Below are positions 23,148 through 30,484 of a stretch of DNA of 64,000 nt, piece after piece. The stretch comes from an uncultured Acholeplasmatales bacterium (GTDB taxonomy: Bacteria; Bacillota_I; Bacilli_A; Acholeplasmatales; Anaeroplasmataceae), in assembly GCA_944323055.1 (NCBI GenBank), contig CALUQZ010000007.1, forward strand, positions 1 through 64,000, in the 5' to 3' direction. The notes under the pieces were generated by a model, which saw only the letters and a program-made list of their open reading frames with translations, had not been told where the DNA came from and made no database searches. The translations under genes and the position numbers were made by a program. Every line of letters starts with the position of its first letter. Positions within the stretch are counted from its first letter, which is position 1.

Positions 23148-23693
23148 ATGAAAATATTAATTACTGGTTTTGAACCTTTTTTAAATAATGATGTCAATCC
23201 TTCAATGTTAATAGTTAATATGCTAAAAGATAAATATGATACAATCATATTACCAGTTAGTTATAGTGAAGCTAAAAAGATATTAGAAAATAAAATTAAA
23301 GAAGTTAAACCTGATATTATTTTATCTTTAGGTTTAGCTAGTTCAAGAGATAAAATATCTTTAGAACTTATAGGTATTAATTATCAATATGCTTTAGTAC
23401 CAGATAATGATAATAAAATCATTAAAGGAACAAAAATTCAAGTAGATGGTTTAGATGGAATATTTACTAATTTAGATATATTAAATTATCTAGATTTATT
23501 AAAAGAAAATAATATACCTGGTGAATTATCACTATCAGCCGGAGCTTATATATGTAACTTAGTATATTATACAGCTTTAAATTATACTAAAAATAGTTTA
23601 TTTATTCATTTACCTAATTTAGATAAAATAAATTTAGAAACTAGCTATAAAGCTATAAATTTAATTATAGATAAGATAAAGGCTACAATTTAG
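23148..23693 (+). CDS. pcp: Pyrrolidone-carboxylate peptidase
   Basis: Pcp removes N-terminal pyroglutamate from peptides. The protein is 181 residues, slightly short for the ~200-215 residue family. The catalytic triad is visible as Glu73 (SLELIGINY), Cys136 (SAGAYICN) and His154 (FIHLPN). The start MKILITGFEPF is the family hallmark. It lies seven bases after the DUF2130 gene and overlaps the convergent ferredoxin gene by four bases. Confidence 0.92.
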   Translation: MKILITGFEPFLNNDVNPSMLIVNMLKDKYDTIILPVSYSEAKKILENKIKEVKPDIILSLGLASSRDKISLELIGINYQYALVPDNDNKIIKGTKIQVDGLDGIFTNLDILNYLDLLKENNIPGELSLSAGAYICNLVYYTALNYTKNSLFIHLPNLDKINLETSYKAINLIIDKIKATI

Positions 23694-23704
23694 TAGCCTT
23701 TATC
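23675..23704. terminator. Hairpin holding both stop codons of convergent genes
   Basis: GATAAAGGCTAC (23675-23686) and GTAGCCTTTATC (23693-23704) form a perfect 12-pair stem with a six-base loop. The stop TAG of pcp (23691-23693) and the stop TAA of the opposite ferredoxin gene (23690-23692) both fall in or at the loop. No strong T-run follows on either side, so it may protect 3' ends rather than terminate. Confidence 0.6.
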
Positions 23705-24196
23705 ATTATTTGGTAATATTTCTAATAATTCTTTAACTACCTCAAGAATATCTTTAGGTAGTTTTTTTGTTAATAGTAATTCTAATAATTCATGCGTTTT
23801 ATTACTTTGAGGTAGCATATAAGAACTTTCTCGCATTAAATCTTCATTTGTCAAACGTAATGACATGTTTAAAGCTTTAAAAAGTCTATATTCTTCATCT
23901 GTCTTCACATTTTTAATTTTAGTGTTAGTAATTGCTTCTTCTAAAGCTTTATTTTCACCTAACTTTAATTGCAAATTAACTAATTTATCTTCTTTTTTCT
24001 GTTGAGGTGGGTAATTAATAGGTACCATTGAGATGGCTTTACTAGGACAACTCATCGCACAAGCCCCACAACCTATACATTTACCTACATCAATAATACT
24101 ATCTTCTGTATCACTAGCTCCAGTCGGACAAACATATAAACATAAACAATCTTTTGTGCATAATGCTAGATTTCTAACTGCATATTTACTCTTCAT
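23690..24196 (-). CDS. 4Fe-4S ferredoxin-type protein
   Basis: This 168-residue protein has an N-terminal iron-sulfur part. Cys40, 43, 46 and 50 (CIGCGACAMSCP) form a normal 4Fe-4S motif. The first set, Cys13, 17, 19 and 23, is spaced CX3CXCX3CP instead of CX2CX2CX3CP. The rest (from ~55) is a helical tail without cofactor motifs. It starts two bases after the rubredoxin/rubrerythrin-like gene with an AGGTAATT RBS. The pair is probably an electron-transfer partnership, perhaps for oxidative stress, which is an inference. Confidence 0.85.
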   Translation of the reverse strand: MKSKYAVRNLALCTKDCLCLYVCPTGASDTEDSIIDVGKCIGCGACAMSCPSKAISMVPINYPPQQKKEDKLVNLQLKLGENKALEEAITNTKIKNVKTDEEYRLFKALNMSLRLTNEDLMRESSYMLPQSNKTHELLELLLTKKLPKDILEVVKELLEILPNNDKGY

Positions 24197-24198
24197 AA

Positions 24199-24813
24199 TT
24201 ACCTCCCATTTATTAAGACAAATTTATCATTAGGTACTTTACAAACAGGACAAATTTTAGGCAAAGTATCACCTATATAAACAAAGCCACAAATTGAACA
24301 AACATATATCTTATTATTTGTTAAAAAACTAGCTCCTTCTTTTTCATAACGAGTTAAAATGCTACTTACTATTTTTGTTACTTTTTCTCCCCAAACTAAA
24401 GCTCTTTTAGAACCTCTATCATTATATTTATCGGCTTCAGCAAAAAGGATTTTATAAAAGTCTAAATCTTCTTCTATTAAATCTTTTAAATTTCCTTCTT
24501 CATCTTTAGCTATTTTAGCAAAATAATTAGCTAATTCTTTAAATTTAATTTCTTCTTTAGCTTTATATTGTTTTAAAGAACCACGAGCTAAATTAGAAAA
24601 GATAGCGGAAAGTAATAATGGTGATAATTCTTTTAAATCTTCAACTTCTTCTACTTTATCGTTTATATTAGCTTCTTCTCTTATTTCAGCTTCAAACAAA
24701 TCTTTAGGAGCCCCACACATTGGACAAACCCAATCAGCTGGTAAATCTTTAAATAATACTCCTTCTTTTTCTTCATCATATACATAACTACATACTTGGC
24801 AAATATATTTCAT
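24199..24813 (-). CDS. Rubredoxin-ferritin-like-rubredoxin domain protein
   Basis: This 204-residue protein has two rubredoxin-type iron sites, CXXC pairs at 5/8 and 30/33 and again at 172/175 and 188/191. A ferritin-like helical region (about 60-165) lies between them. It looks like a rubrerythrin-type domain but seems to lack some diiron ligands: the expected ExxH appears as EEGN, and the first-helix Glu position is Asn in AIFSNLARG. Peroxide reduction at a diiron centre is therefore doubtful, and electron transfer is more likely. It follows the lipoprotein gene by nine bases with its own RBS (AGGAG). Confidence 0.87.
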
Positions 24814-24822
24814 AGTACACTC

Positions 24823-26964
24823 CTATTCTACAATTGTTATATCATAGTAAAACTGCGACAAATAATCAATATTATCAATTCTAAACTCTAAAAAAATGCT
24901 TAATTCAAAATTAGTAGGTACCACATTTTTAATTAAAAAATTTAAAGAATTACCAATTTGCTCAAATTCAATTTGTTCATTATTAATATATACATATTTA
25001 ATAGAAGCATTACTAGCTTCAGTATTAGTAAGACTTAAAAGGACTTTAAATCCCTCTTCTGTCATAAAATAAGTTATATCTGGGGCTTTAATTTCAGGAG
25101 CTGTTTTAAAAGAATTATTATAATTATATTCTTGATAACCTTGCCCATCATAATTATTATAAGAATAATTAATTACATAAAAATATTGGGTATTTGGAGT
25201 CAAATCTTCAAAATATAAAGTGTAATAATTATATTCAACACCTATTTCATCTGATTGATAAACTTTAATTAAAGTATCATTAGGACCATATAATTCGATA
25301 CTATTTATAATAGCAGAATTGTTACTTTGTTTAAAATAACACCTTAACCGACAACTAGTTGGAAAAATTTCATCAATATTAGATACAAGTTGGAAAGTAG
25401 CTGATATTGTATCTACTTCATATTTATAAACTTCTCTTGTAAGATCAGATGAGGAATTATCTTGATAATAAACTACATAAAATATATTATACGTTTTATT
25501 AGGTTCTAAGTTTTTAAAAGTAAAATCATCATCTTCTAAATAAGTTGCATAAGAGCCTGAATCTTCATAAAAAATATCAATTTCTAAAATGGTATTATCA
25601 GGATCATAAATGTCGTAATAACAATATATTTCATTACTACCAGTTCTAAATATTGGGCTTACAATAGGTTTAGTTTTAGCTAAAGTAGATACATATTTGT
25701 TTTCACTATAATTCTTTATTTCTGTCTCATCAAGCTTATAATCATAACTCAATCTTATTTCATATATAGTATCTGATAATAAACTATTAAATGTACCTTC
25801 AACATCTACTTTAGTTTCAATTAAAGTTCCTTTAGCATCATATAAACTAACATTAAAATTAGAAACAATACTATCAACATCTAATATATTTACTTGATAA
25901 CTAATACTTGTCTTATTAACATCAACATTAAAATATAATAAACTAGGTTCTTCATAACTAGGTGTTATAAGTACATATTTTATTTCAACTAATTCATTAG
26001 TACTAGAAGTCACATAACTTAAAATAAAAGTATATTCTGTATTAGGTACTAAATTAGAAACAACACTAGTGTTTGTAACATCTTGTCCATTACAACTTAC
26101 CATTAAATTAGTAACAACATTATCTTCTTTAATTTCATAAGTTATATAAGTAGGATATGTGACAAAGTTTACTAAACTAACTTCTGAATAAGCTCTAATT
26201 TCTTCTTCATACATCAAATAAGAACTTACACCATTGCCATCAAAGAAATCAGCATAACAAATGACAGCAAACTGATAAACTTTACCTACTTCTAACTCAT
26301 CAAAATAAATGGTTGACCTCAATTCATTAGTATCTAGATAATCTACTATTTCGCCATCTAGAAATAAAATAAAGCGGTAAGTAGCATTTAAATATAATTG
26401 GTCATCAATTAAATAATCAACTATTAAAATACCTGAATCTGTACTTAACTCTTTAAAGACAATTTGAGGTCTTGCAGTATCTGTAACACCTAACTTAATA
26501 ACAGGCGTAGTATTATCTAAATCAACATCTAAAATACTTGATTCATAAACATATTTAATCCCTGTTATTCTATAAGTATAAGGACCAGGCGTACTAGGTG
26601 CCTGCATCTTTATGATGATTTCTTCACTAGTTGAATTATCTTGGAATTGATAACTTTGATATTTTATATTATCAATACTAATTGACATTATTTCATAAGA
26701 TTCATCATTTTCTAATAAAACATGTAAATAAAATTCCTCATTAGGATTTGCATAATGGTCTACTTGTTCATCACTTACTTCAACATTGCTAGGTGGTTCT
26801 AAAGTTTGACTCATATTTTTAGCTATATCATCTTCACTGCTATCACTTAAATAAACATCTTTATAAGTAGGGGGATTAGAAACGTCTATTAAGTTATCAT
26901 TACTATTATCACTACAACTTACTAAGAGTAATATTAATCCTAATATAAAAACTAATTTTCTAAT
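24823..26964 (-). CDS. Large Fn3-like lipoprotein, apparent ATT start
   Basis: An ATG at 26814 gives 663 residues without a signal peptide. The same frame continues 50 codons upstream and encodes RKLVFILGLILLLVSC, a textbook lipoprotein signal with lipobox LVSC. An in-frame TGA blocks further extension, and there is no ATG, GTG or TTG. The only start candidate is ATT at 26964-26962, seven bases after GGAGG. With it the protein is 713 residues, lipidated at Cys17. The exported part repeats motifs such as NLVPNTEYTFILSYV, NLEPNKTYNIFYVVYY and DLTPNTQYFYVINYSY, like fibronectin type III strands. It overlaps the preceding gene by 13 bases. Function is unknown; the substrate or ligand may be outside the cell. 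Confidence 0.85.
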   Translation of the reverse strand: MRKLVFILGLILLLVSCSDNSNDNLIDVSNPPTYKDVYLSDSSEDDIAKNMSQTLEPPSNVEVSDEQVDHYANPNEEFYLHVLLENDESYEIMSISIDNIKYQSYQFQDNSTSEEIIIKMQAPSTPGPYTYRITGIKYVYESSILDVDLDNTTPVIKLGVTDTARPQIVFKELSTDSGILIVDYLIDDQLYLNATYRFILFLDGEIVDYLDTNELRSTIYFDELEVGKVYQFAVICYADFFDGNGVSSYLMYEEEIRAYSEVSLVNFVTYPTYITYEIKEDNVVTNLMVSCNGQDVTNTSVVSNLVPNTEYTFILSYVTSSTNELVEIKYVLITPSYEEPSLLYFNVDVNKTSISYQVNILDVDSIVSNFNVSLYDAKGTLIETKVDVEGTFNSLLSDTIYEIRLSYDYKLDETEIKNYSENKYVSTLAKTKPIVSPIFRTGSNEIYCYYDIYDPDNTILEIDIFYEDSGSYATYLEDDDFTFKNLEPNKTYNIFYVVYYQDNSSSDLTREVYKYEVDTISATFQLVSNIDEIFPTSCRLRCYFKQSNNSAIINSIELYGPNDTLIKVYQSDEIGVEYNYYTLYFEDLTPNTQYFYVINYSYNNYDGQGYQEYNYNNSFKTAPEIKAPDITYFMTEEGFKVLLSLTNTEASNASIKYVYINNEQIEFEQIGNSLNFLIKNVVPTNFELSIFLEFRIDNIDYLSQFYYDITIVE

Positions 26965-28208
26965 AGTAAAACCTCCTCATAATAATTATCTAATAATTGA
27001 TATCTAACTTTAATTTCTTCAATATTTTCGATATCTTTTAACATACAAACTACATCTAAACTATCATCATCGCTATAATTAAATACTTTGTCACTATTAA
27101 CTATAATTTCTGTAACTTTAACCTCTTCTGCTTTCTTAAAACTCAATACATAACCATTTGATAATTTTGTTAAATTACAATCATAAAATACCCTATTAAT
27201 TGTATTAGTAATTAAATTATATTGATATGTTTTACCATTATATTCATATTCAAAAATTAAATGATAGTTTGTATTAGGTGATAAATTAGTAATATGTTTA
27301 TCTACTATTTGACCATTTAAATAAACTACTATATCATAGTCAGTTATGATATCAATATAATCAATACCACTTATAATGCTATAGGTAAATGGTAAATCAG
27401 TTGTGATATCTTCTCTTAATAATTCTATTTTTCTTAAACCTAATCCATCTAATAAATCAAAATTAGTAGTGATAGCTAAAGTATAGGTAGTACCAGGTTC
27501 TAAATTAGCGATATTAATACTATTACTGCCTACTGTTTGATAGATAAGTGTATCACCATTATACAATTGAATCATAATATCTAAGGAACTATCATATGCT
27601 AAACTAAAACTAATTGTTGTTGTAGTTTTAACAATATTATAAATATCAATTTGCGGTATGTCATATTTTATAGCTATTTCTAATTCTCTATCACCTACAA
27701 ATTCCGATTCTTTAATATTAGTTCCATCAATATATTTAATACTATCTACATAAATAGAAGTTACCCCTCCCGTTTCTGGTAAGGTATATTTTAAATAAAT
27801 TGTATGATTATTAGAACCGTCTAAAAACTCATATGAATTATATTTATAATCATTAATAGTAACTGATAATATTTCAAATTGTTCCTGATTATCTAAATTA
27901 ATCGTTATAATAATGTTGTCATTTGCAGCAAAATAATAATCATAAGAGTAAGTAAAATCCACATTGCTTGTATTTATAGTCGTCTTTTCTTTACTTAAAC
28001 TCATGTTTAAGAAAGAAACTGTAGCTTTACTAATAAAAGTAATTGATACAACTATAATTAAAGCTATAAGAGAAAGTGCTGATATAACATAAGCAATAAT
28101 ATATGGTAAACGTCGATTTTTAAAAGATAAGTCTTTTTTGATGTTTTCTAGTTCTTCTTTGCTTGTTAAACTAAATTTTAAACTATTTTTTAAATCTTTA
28201 CGTTTCAC
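26952..28208 (-). CDS. Membrane-anchored Fn3-like protein, possible anti-sigma factor
   Basis: This 418-residue protein has a short charged cytoplasmic part (1-34), one membrane helix (about 35-60) and a long extracytoplasmic region. That region carries Fn3-like motifs such as NLEPGTTYTLAITT and NLSPNTNYHLIFEY. The start is GTG 28208, eight bases after a strong GGAGGGGG, only three bases past the sigma factor stop. A transmembrane protein encoded directly after an ECF sigma factor is commonly its anti-sigma factor, here with an external sensing domain in the manner of RsgI. It lacks the zinc anti-sigma HxxxCxxC motif, so the anti-sigma role is an inference from position and topology. Confidence 0.85.
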   Translation of the reverse strand: MKRKDLKNSLKFSLTSKEELENIKKDLSFKNRRLPYIIAYVISALSLIALIIVVSITFISKATVSFLNMSLSKEKTTINTSNVDFTYSYDYYFAANDNIIITINLDNQEQFEILSVTINDYKYNSYEFLDGSNNHTIYLKYTLPETGGVTSIYVDSIKYIDGTNIKESEFVGDRELEIAIKYDIPQIDIYNIVKTTTTISFSLAYDSSLDIMIQLYNGDTLIYQTVGSNSINIANLEPGTTYTLAITTNFDLLDGLGLRKIELLREDITTDLPFTYSIISGIDYIDIITDYDIVVYLNGQIVDKHITNLSPNTNYHLIFEYEYNGKTYQYNLITNTINRVFYDCNLTKLSNGYVLSFKKAEEVKVTEIIVNSDKVFNYSDDDSLDVVCMLKDIENIEEIKVRYQLLDNYYEEVLLLEN

Positions 28209-28211
28209 TTT

Positions 28212-28721
28212 TTATGCCCCCTCCCTCATGATTTTTTTAACTTTGTTTAAACCAATTTTATATATATCATGACAACGTGTTTTACTTTTGTTTAAAACTT
28301 TAGAGATTTCATTGAAATTAAATGAAAAAGCAAAATGTAAAATGAACACATCAAATTCTTCTTTAGTTAAAATTTTAGCTATATTAAGCCAAATATCATT
28401 GTTTAGTGTTTCGATAATTGAACTGTCTAAATACCCTTTTTCTGACAAATATTTAGTTTCATTATTTCTACTTCTAAGTAACATATAAGCTTCATTTTTA
28501 GCTATTTGAACTAAATAATATTTTAAACTACCACCTTTAAAATTATCAATATTTTGATAAAACTTAGTAAATGTAATTTGACAGATATCATTTACATCTT
28601 CTATATCATGTAAGATATCATAAGCTACATATTTTACTAATGCTGCATATTTATAATATATTTTATCAAAGGCCTTCTCGTCTTTTCGTTTGAGTCTTTC
28701 TATTAATATCTTATCTTCCAT
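28212..28721 (-). CDS. ECF-type RNA polymerase sigma factor
   Basis: The 169-residue protein has sigma region 2 (residues ~10-80: AFDKIYYKYAALVKYVAY, DICQITFTKFYQNIDNF) and region 4 (about 110-165: LTKEEFDVFILHFAFSFNF followed by the HTH FNEISKVLNKSKTRCHDIYK). No region 1.1 or 3 is present, as in ECF factors. Its AAGGAG RBS and ATG overlap the end of the upstream lipoprotein gene by 11 bases. It is placed among three genes for exported Fn3-like proteins, so it probably controls envelope genes, perhaps this operon itself. Confidence 0.92.
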   Translation of the reverse strand: MEDKILIERLKRKDEKAFDKIYYKYAALVKYVAYDILHDIEDVNDICQITFTKFYQNIDNFKGGSLKYYLVQIAKNEAYMLLRSRNNETKYLSEKGYLDSSIIETLNNDIWLNIAKILTKEEFDVFILHFAFSFNFNEISKVLNKSKTRCHDIYKIGLNKVKKIMREGA

Positions 28722-30378
28722 ATAGTGACTCCTTCGTATAAACTATTAGTGAATCTTGTAGTTCAGCAATATTATTATAAGCATAATATGTATATATAAT
28801 TCTAATTTCATATGCTGTATTAGGTTTTAAATTAGTAAAGGTATCATTAAAACTATTTGAAGTAGTTATTAATTCCCCTAAGGAGAATAAATATACATTA
28901 AAATCTACAATCTTTGAACAGTTTGATTGATCAATGATATCATAAGTAATAGAATCTTTAGTACTATTTGTAGATAAGATTAATTTAGGCTTTGTATAAG
29001 ATATATACATGTATTCGGTTTTAGTTTGTTGATATTTTTTACCATATTCATCAGTTTCATAAGTTATTTCTATTTTATAATTGCCTTCTCCACAAGTATT
29101 AATTACTAAATCTGTTCCCCTATATATTAAATTATCATCATAATATAGATTTATATTAGTTATAATAAAGGCATTATCAAGCCAACCAAAATATATTAAG
29201 CCCTTGTTTTGATCAAGTGTTAGATTATAAACCAAATAATTTTCATATCTATCGCCTGTTGTAAAAGTTAATTCTCTTGACATCTTCTTTTCGGTCATAG
29301 AAATAGTATCAAAATAAGTTAAATTTAATACTGCTTTATAGGTTGAATTAGAATTGTATTTACTAAATTCTAAAGAAGTGGTATCACTACTAGCAACTAA
29401 GATATCATTTTCATCATAAAGTAATATTTCATATTTTTGTCTATCATAGACATCTAGATTACTAAAACTAATATTATAAACATCAGTGACGCTATTAAAA
29501 TCACAGGCAACTTCATAATTTGGAACTTTAGTTTCTAAAAAATTCAAGCTAAATTCATGCGTAAATAATTTACCATTATAATAATATCTTAGAACTCCAG
29601 TATAATCTAAAGTTAAACCTACTGGTTTTTCTATTGTTAATTTATTATCAACAAGTTCATATGTTTTACCATCCATTATGAAACTATCTAATGTTACTCC
29701 ACTATTATAAGTAAAAGTTAAAATGTCATAACCAACTTCATAATTAACTAAAATATTAACTGGAGGATAAAAATATAAATCCTTTGTATACATTAAGTAT
29801 TGTTGATTTAAATCAGCATATATTTTTATATTAAAAAGGCCGCTTTGTATATTATCATAATAATAATTATAATCGGTTATATTGCCTTCAAATAAATAAT
29901 CATTATTATTTAAAATTGACATATAAATAGGAAAATCTAAGTCTTTATAACAATTTAGGTCTATATTTATACTATGAGCATCAGTTGTTAATAGCGGATT
30001 AATTGTTAAAATAGCAAATGGATCGATTACTTTGATAGTTTTATTAAAAGCTACATTGTAATAAATATCATTAATTATAATATTTGATATTGTCAAATTA
30101 TAAAAATCTTTTGTACGAACTAATAAACTAATTTGATTATTCATATTGTTATAATAATTATCATTAACTATTAAACCATCTATTTTATAGTTAGAATTAA
30201 CAGCTACGTTAATGCTGGTACCGGCTAAAATAACATTTGACTCTTCATTATAATAATCACCAGTTAAAACAAATTCGCAAGAAAAATCAGCAATTGGCTT
30301 ATTATATGCTATATCTGTGGTATCATTGCAACTAGTCAAAGTAAATAAAATAAAAAATAAAAGAATGATATACTTCAC
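28711..30378 (-). CDS. Fn3-like repeat lipoprotein
   Basis: The best start is GTG 30378, giving a 555-residue protein that begins KYIILLFFILFTLTSC, a lipoprotein signal with Cys17. A longer frame from ATG 30399 adds seven residues, has no RBS and spoils the signal. Exported domains contain repeated beta-strand patterns ending in motifs such as NLKPNTAYEIRIIYTYYAY, similar to the neighbouring proteins. It is the first gene of the four-gene envelope module, about 45 bases downstream of a candidate promoter. The ligand is unknown. Confidence 0.85.
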   Translation of the reverse strand: MKYIILLFFILFTLTSCNDTTDIAYNKPIADFSCEFVLTGDYYNEESNVILAGTSINVAVNSNYKIDGLIVNDNYYNNMNNQISLLVRTKDFYNLTISNIIINDIYYNVAFNKTIKVIDPFAILTINPLLTTDAHSINIDLNCYKDLDFPIYMSILNNNDYLFEGNITDYNYYYDNIQSGLFNIKIYADLNQQYLMYTKDLYFYPPVNILVNYEVGYDILTFTYNSGVTLDSFIMDGKTYELVDNKLTIEKPVGLTLDYTGVLRYYYNGKLFTHEFSLNFLETKVPNYEVACDFNSVTDVYNISFSNLDVYDRQKYEILLYDENDILVASSDTTSLEFSKYNSNSTYKAVLNLTYFDTISMTEKKMSRELTFTTGDRYENYLVYNLTLDQNKGLIYFGWLDNAFIITNINLYYDDNLIYRGTDLVINTCGEGNYKIEITYETDEYGKKYQQTKTEYMYISYTKPKLILSTNSTKDSITYDIIDQSNCSKIVDFNVYLFSLGELITTSNSFNDTFTNLKPNTAYEIRIIYTYYAYNNIAELQDSLIVYTKESLYGR

Positions 30379-30429
30379 AGTTAACACTTCCCCTCGCATA
30401 ATAATAAATCAATCATAAATGCTGTCTAT

Positions 30430-30458
30430 ATTATACAATAAAACTTCATTATAAGCAA
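30430..30458 (-). promoter_or_regulatory. Candidate promoter of the lipoprotein-sigma operon
   Basis: -35 TTGCTT (30453-30458), 17-base spacer, -10 TATAAT (30430-30435). The -35 box abuts the tail of the tuf terminator. No second, ECF-like promoter was recognised by eye. Confidence 0.55.
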
Positions 30459-30484
30459 AAAAAAGAAGGACTAAGCCTTCTTTA
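30457..30484 (-). terminator. Terminator of the str operon
   Basis: Minus strand AAAGAAGG-CTTAGT-CCTTCTTT forms an eight-pair stem followed by a long T-run, eight bases past the tuf stop. Confidence 0.85.

Follow-up and report, generated by a model that had tools for sequence, protein, structure and literature searches.

The 64,000-nucleotide stretch of DNA analysed here (the window) carries a minus-strand operon in which the gene for an ECF sigma factor is followed by one for a single-pass membrane protein (ANTI) that, from its sequence, looks like the anti-sigma factor of this adjacent sigma factor, and then by one for a lipoprotein (LPB) that, by sequence homology, repeats the outer domains of the sensor on a lipid anchor, with a signal peptide replacing the cytoplasmic tail. 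The distinctive points are this twinning of sensor and lipoprotein and its recurrence with unrelated domains; a precedent exists in LbpA of C. difficile.

Organisation and expression of the operon

The four genes occupy positions 30378 to 24823 in the order LPA, ECF sigma factor, ANTI and LPB (Table 1). Their products had been described in an earlier reading of the letters alone (the sequence-only reading) as a lipoprotein, an ECF sigma factor, a single-pass membrane protein and a second lipoprotein, and these assignments were borne out by the matches to TIGR02937 and Sigma70_r2, by the lipoprotein signals and by topology. The same reading had all four genes overlapping; LPA overlaps the sigma factor gene by 11 nt and ANTI overlaps LPB by 13 nt, but the sigma factor gene and ANTI are 3 nt apart. 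LPA encodes 555 aa when read from the GTG at 30378 and 562 aa from an in-frame ATG at 30399.

The sigma factor matches TIGR02937 over residues 17-164 (61.9 bits against a cut-off of 42.9) and Pfam Sigma70_r2 (48.1 against 24), with region 4 recognised at a sub-threshold level only. At 169 residues the protein lies within the length range of the ECF class (about 160-200 aa), which is defined by sigma2 and sigma4 in the absence of sigma3, and these matches place it in that class.

The start of LPB deserves comment, since the ORF caller places it at an ATG (26814) within the protein, where the signal peptide would be lost. Read from a rare ATT at 26964, LPB begins with a lipoprotein signal (IRKLVFILGLILLLVSC); the ribosome site GAGGAGG precedes this codon, its GGAGG lying 7 nt upstream of the start, and a TGA is found five codons upstream. 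The orthologue in a second genome of the genus (G002) has a TTG start at the same spacing.

Between the hairpin that separates the operon from tuf (30483-30462) and the next terminator-like site (23704-23675), the terminator scan predicted no minus-strand terminator, so that in this genome (G000) the operon probably shares its transcript with the two redox genes that follow LPB; in G001, G004 and G007 these genes are no neighbours of the operon. The promoter candidate before LPA is absent from the promoter scan list because of its weak -35 element, and inspection by eye of the regions upstream of five operons gave no convincing ECF promoter consensus. The proposal of a surface-sensing sigma circuit is probably correct, but the accompanying idea that it is self-contained, in the sense of autoregulation, is not supported: the search for an ECF promoter was negative, and the -10 element before LPA is of the sigma-A type.

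Table 1. Features of the operon and its flanks, in window coordinates
Feature	Position	Strand	Basis
LPA, lipoprotein with tandem Fn3-like domains	28711..30378	-	lipobox LTSC, AlphaFold model, orthologues
ECF sigma factor, 169 aa	28212..28721	-	TIGR02937 and Sigma70_r2 above cut-off; its relatives in the PDB belong to the ECF class
ANTI, 418 aa, GTG start, anti-sigma candidate with a single membrane pass	26952..28208	-	single TM helix, oriented N-in by its positive residues; post-sigma position in 5/5 operons; tail motif
ANTI cytoplasmic tail, residues 1-34	28107..28208	-	two predicted short helices and motif L..IK..L.F
D1 domain of ANTI, ~95 aa, juxtamembrane	27663..27947	-	profile A5
LPB, 'mirror' lipoprotein of 713 aa read from ATT, D1 and Fn3 repeats	24823..26964	-	homology to ANTI ectodomain
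D1 domain of LPB	26485..26769	-	profile search, E 4.4e-36
Terminator-like hairpin after EF-Tu, divides operon from tuf	30462..30483	-	terminator scan
Sigma-A-like promoter candidate before LPA, weak -35 TTGCTT, 17 nt, -10 TATAAT	30430..30458	-	read from sequence
Rubredoxin/rubrerythrin-like and ferredoxin genes, 9 nt after LPB	23690..24813	-	gene calls
Terminator-like site, next after redox genes	23675..23704	-	terminator scan

ANTI resembles a membrane anti-sigma factor

In five genomes ANTI has the topology and position of a membrane anti-sigma factor, with a single membrane pass, a cytoplasmic N-terminal tail and a gene that adjoins that of the sigma factor. Its predicted structure (pLDDT 82.9, from six sequences) consists of two short helices (residues 3-11 and 17-26), a TM helix (34-59) and an all-beta remainder; the tail is modelled at low confidence (pLDDT 47-58).

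Of 22 membrane proteins whose genes come straight after a sigma gene, 13 carry the motif L..IK..L.F ahead of the TM helix, as against none of the 32 other membrane proteins in those loci, the motif having been picked after inspection of some of these tails. Its carriers include proteins of 119-253 aa with very different ectodomains, encoded beside related sigma factors. This comparison agrees with the anti-sigma position that the sequence-only reading had assigned to the membrane protein, and the predicted tail is likely to be the sigma-binding part of ANTI. The class II anti-sigma factor CnrY of the CnrY/CnrH pair, whose helix 1 binds sigma4 and whose helix 2 binds sigma2 (PMC7406223), has a short two-helix cytoplasmic tail before one TM helix, which the tail predicted for ANTI may resemble, a likeness that depends on the low-confidence part of the ANTI model; the ectodomains of the two proteins are unrelated.

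Fn3-type domains and the juxtamembrane domain D1

All three exported proteins match Pfam fn3 below threshold (ANTI, E 0.0025; LPB, E 0.00074; LPA, E 0.068). When models were used for fold searches, ANTI matched fibronectin Fn7B89 (E 1.3e-8, prob 1.00) and LPA, from an AlphaFold model with pLDDT 80.4, matched gp130-type Fn3 arrays (E 1.2e-12, prob 1.00); the low TM-scores come from the comparison of entire multi-domain chains, and the matches speak to fold class, not function. On these models ANTI and LPA would both be tandem beta-sandwiches of the fibronectin type III kind. The assignment for LPB comes from its homology to ANTI and from sub-threshold Pfam matches in three of five orthologues. 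The Fn3-like strands noted earlier in the three exported proteins find their counterpart in predicted structures, the check that had been suggested, for ANTI and LPA, and in homology for LPB. A direct comparison of LPA with ANTI revealed no detectable homology (E about 1).

ANTI and LPB, together with their counterparts in a second operon (ANTI2 and LPB2), share a domain next to the membrane, D1 (about 95 aa), for which there is no family in Pfam or NCBIfam and no sequence match in the PDB. Autocleavage at an Asn-Pro bond, as in RsgI, was considered for D1 and rejected, as D1 retains the Asn and not the Pro.

LPB mirrors the ectodomain of ANTI

The ectodomain of ANTI is homologous to LPB (phmmer, E 9.6e-13, 34.1 bits, against a maximum of -0.2 bits in 300 shuffles), and the same relationship between the anti-sigma candidate and the following lipoprotein holds across both operon types, at every one of the eight intact D1 loci, with E values from 2e-11 to 5e-65. 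These eight pairs score 29.8 to 206 bits, compared with no more than 7.5 bits for 300 shuffles per lipoprotein, and shuffled and reversed sequences rule out Fn3 composition bias as the source of the homology. Recent duplication within operon 1 as the origin of ANTI and LPB is weakly disfavoured (AU p 0.048). The sequence-only reading had missed the extramembrane homology of ANTI and LPB, along with the ATT start of LPB, the second related operon in G000 and the widespread occurrence of the layout with other ectodomains.

The layout recurs with unrelated ectodomains

A homologous exported neighbour was found at 18 of the 61 sigma loci that have a sigma-adjacent membrane protein, so the mirror is not universal. 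By ectodomain, the 18 loci belong to three unrelated types, D1/Fn3 (eight), an acidic 'YYN' type (five) and RsgI_M (five), which fall in separate parts of the sigma tree; G000 has three mirror loci (contigs 4, 7 and 16). The weakest pair (L181) scores 19.2 bits, with Pfam RsgI_M matched in both proteins, and one YYN pair (L059) scores 38.6 bits against a shuffle maximum of 17.5 bits. A control with exported neighbour pairs away from sigma genes produced one pair, too few to inform.

RsgI_M defines a known anti-sigma family, and a class-wide search returned many tandem matches in many Bacilli families (L226-L241 were inspected). All 16 further pairs inspected (within about 3 kb) comprise an ECF-type sigma factor, a TM anti-sigma factor and a lipoprotein or exported protein, with the lipoprotein encoded before the sigma factor in ten and after the anti-sigma factor in six; chosen for having two RsgI_M matches, they illustrate the nature of tandem pairs rather than their frequency. 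In the open-access literature we found no report of D1, nor any of RsgI_M mirror lipoproteins.

These loci raise the possibility, which we put forward tentatively and somewhat short of an even chance, that sensor-twin modules form a general, undescribed class of bacterial regulatory unit, in which an alternative sigma factor and its membrane anti-sigma factor stay together with a lipid-anchored version of the sensor domain; the ectodomain itself would vary (D1/Fn3, YYN, RsgI_M, RsiV) and the lipoprotein would reveal the sensor's ligand. Pairing a sensor with its lookalike may be a widespread means of linking perception of the outside to display of a binding protein. To our knowledge most anti-sigma ectodomains have no known ligand, and if the adjacent lipoprotein has the binding domains of the sensor, a soluble twin could be purified to fish for that ligand, which would make many orphan sigma circuits testable.

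Conservation within the genus

The gene-neighbourhood search suggested by the sequence-only reading recovered the four-gene order in five of the eight genomes of the genus (G000, G001, G002, G004 and G007), at sigma factor identities as low as 47% and with LPA orthologues upstream of the sigma gene in the four genomes other than G000; G005 is the one genome in which the sigma factor occurs without the membrane protein. Of the two results that the sequence-only reading had named as refuting it, neither tells plainly against it, since Fn3-like domains do appear in the predicted structures and the lone sigma factor is confined to this one genome. The operon lies beside EF-Tu in G000 and G002 and at other places in G001, G004 and G007. 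A second operon type, sigma-ANTI2-LPB2 (LPB2 of 1429-1481 aa), is present in G000, G001 and G004, and has decayed in G003, where a stop falls just ahead of the anti-sigma TM helix (L050 9438-10172). G005, the smallest genome of the genus, retains an intact orphan sigma factor (L048 8609-9103) with no ANTI found in the genome, and G006 has neither. In G004 a solo LPB-like lipoprotein gene (L130 7262-8275) occupies the site at which G007 has all four genes, a sign that the operon may have moved or been lost. Alignment of ANTI to named records gave eight loci, the closest from uncultured Acholeplasmatales MAGs, and one search of the sigma factor sequence against named close-relative genomes gave no match.

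The distribution of D1 bears on whether the exported proteins might be ordinary tandem-duplicated adhesins that lie near a sigma factor by chance, the membrane protein not being its inhibitor. D1 occurs in 42 of 395 genomes of the class, in 20 genera, nearly always on solitary lipoproteins with no sigma neighbour, and sigma-less D1/Fn3 lipoproteins are thus common; the solitary sigma factor of G005 points the same way. We nevertheless regard this account as improbable, since the gene order is conserved in five genomes at different sites and there is a second operon besides, all four D1 copies detected in G000 fall within its two sigma operons, the tail motif is conserved beside sigma factors of other families with unrelated ectodomains, and the identical layout is seen with RsgI_M proteins.

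Two further features of these loci were noted in passing. In G003 an unrelated reading frame has become joined to the D1 remnant, with an ATPase-like gene downstream, and in G001 a degenerate second ECF-like reading frame (L049 8169-8618) lies directly upstream of the operon 2 sigma gene.

Relationship to known systems and a proposed mechanism

The sole functional precedent that we found for the mirror layout is LbpA beside RsiV. Encoded in the csfV operon of C. difficile (sigmaV, RsiV, LbpA, PdaV), LbpA is orthologous to RsiV but lacks the sigma-binding domain; it binds lysozyme and confers low-level resistance, with no role in sigma regulation (PMC9044953). That operon and the present one each have an ECF sigma factor, a membrane anti-sigma factor or candidate, and a membrane-bound relative of its ectodomain that lacks the sigma-binding part, and LPB stands to ANTI as such an operonic, anchored copy without the tail. 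However, the domain is of the RsiV/lysozyme kind there and D1/Fn3 here, and an extra Fn3 lipoprotein, LPA, is encoded upstream here; neither ANTI nor LPB has an RsiV-type match in Pfam or NCBIfam, and membership of the RsiV/LbpA family was rejected. SigI/RsgI of C. thermocellum and B. subtilis likewise combines a sigma factor with a single-pass anti-sigma factor, a juxtamembrane domain and a variable extracellular sensor, and its RsgI_M-bearing relatives also have mirror lipoproteins, whereas here D1 takes the place of the periplasmic RsgI domain and the sigma factor is of the ECF type. ANTI has no RsgI family match in Pfam or NCBIfam, which excludes it from that family, and RsgI_M (PF23750) has no match in the whole of G000.

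The mechanism that we favour, with moderate confidence, is a module of sigma factor, membrane anti-sigma factor and mirror lipoprotein. The short two-helix tail of ANTI would hold the ECF sigma factor while its D1 and Fn3 domains sense an extracellular ligand or surface; upon ligand binding ANTI would be destroyed, most likely through regulated intramembrane proteolysis by a site-2 protease of the RseP/RasP type, and the sigma factor freed. Such a protease was found in every genome searched, G000 included, and release in the RsiV and RsgI systems proceeds by intramembrane proteolysis (PMC9044953, PMC12203970). LPB, with LPA, would constitute an output or buffering arm, presumably under control of the sigma factor, that binds the same ligand in adhesion, capture or neutralisation, and LPB may also damp the signal by competing with ANTI; the role of LPB as effector or sink for the ligand of ANTI is proposed by analogy with LbpA. 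Speaking against the module are the lack of detectable homology between LPA and ANTI, the sigma factor of G005 without ANTI, the mirror's presence at only 18 of 61 loci, and the sigma-A-like -10 element in a region that yielded no ECF promoter; the shared domains could also have arisen when a sticky surface domain was simply duplicated in tandem.

LPB might instead act as a co-receptor or inhibitor of ANTI, in the style of RseB on RseA, with D1/Fn3 pairing shielding ANTI from cleavage until ligand or neighbouring cells titrate LPB away. Beta-sandwich domains held in common frequently self-associate, LPB is encoded directly after ANTI in an overlapping frame, and in the tree the D1 domains of the two proteins form separate lineages that arose before the two operons diverged (six of eight ANTI copies, support 96/94), as expected of partners kept together. 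The tree would look no different for two independent binders of one ligand, however, and the one twin that has been studied, LbpA, plays no part in sigma regulation, so that we consider a co-receptor role unlikely, if less so than chance adhesins.

FtsW/RodA and the PBP transpeptidase domain are absent from all eight genomes of the genus and present in other family members, and the genus is therefore probably wall-less; wall-less cells rely on membrane lipoproteins. This dependence would fit a heat, envelope or proteotoxic stress circuit in which ANTI monitors lipoprotein folding or the state of the membrane and the shared domains report misfolded surface proteins, and the SigI/RsgI family has also been described in heat-stress responses (PMC12203970). 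Three different ectodomains, each with a lipoprotein counterpart of its own kind, are better explained by ligand specificity, and we give a stress circuit little credence. Under the favoured module of sensor and mirror lipoprotein, these apparently wall-less, genome-reduced relatives of the mollicutes would possess elaborate surface sensing.

D1 outside the genus

The solitary D1 proteins include Fn3 and BspA-type LRR surface lipoproteins that resemble LPB in having a lipid anchor, D1 near the N terminus and repeats thereafter, and differ from it in that nearly all stand alone, with no sigma factor. At two Oscillospiraceae loci a D1 membrane protein is paired with an ECF sigma factor, and carries LRR_5 repeats in one case (L066) and a peptidase M23 domain in the other (L067). 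A single origin of the D1 anti-sigma candidates of this genus and of the Oscillospiraceae is disfavoured (AU p 0.022), and D1 has therefore probably been recruited more than once. The second Oscillospiraceae protein (L067 7581-8954), which ends in the M23 domain, may be an anti-sigma factor that carries a wall hydrolase on its outer side. In one family of class Bacilli (f16; L152-L159 and L161), almost every member has its D1 lipoprotein gene next to a dinB-like gene (DNA polymerase IV), and an ispH/lytB-like gene frequently lies on the other flank.
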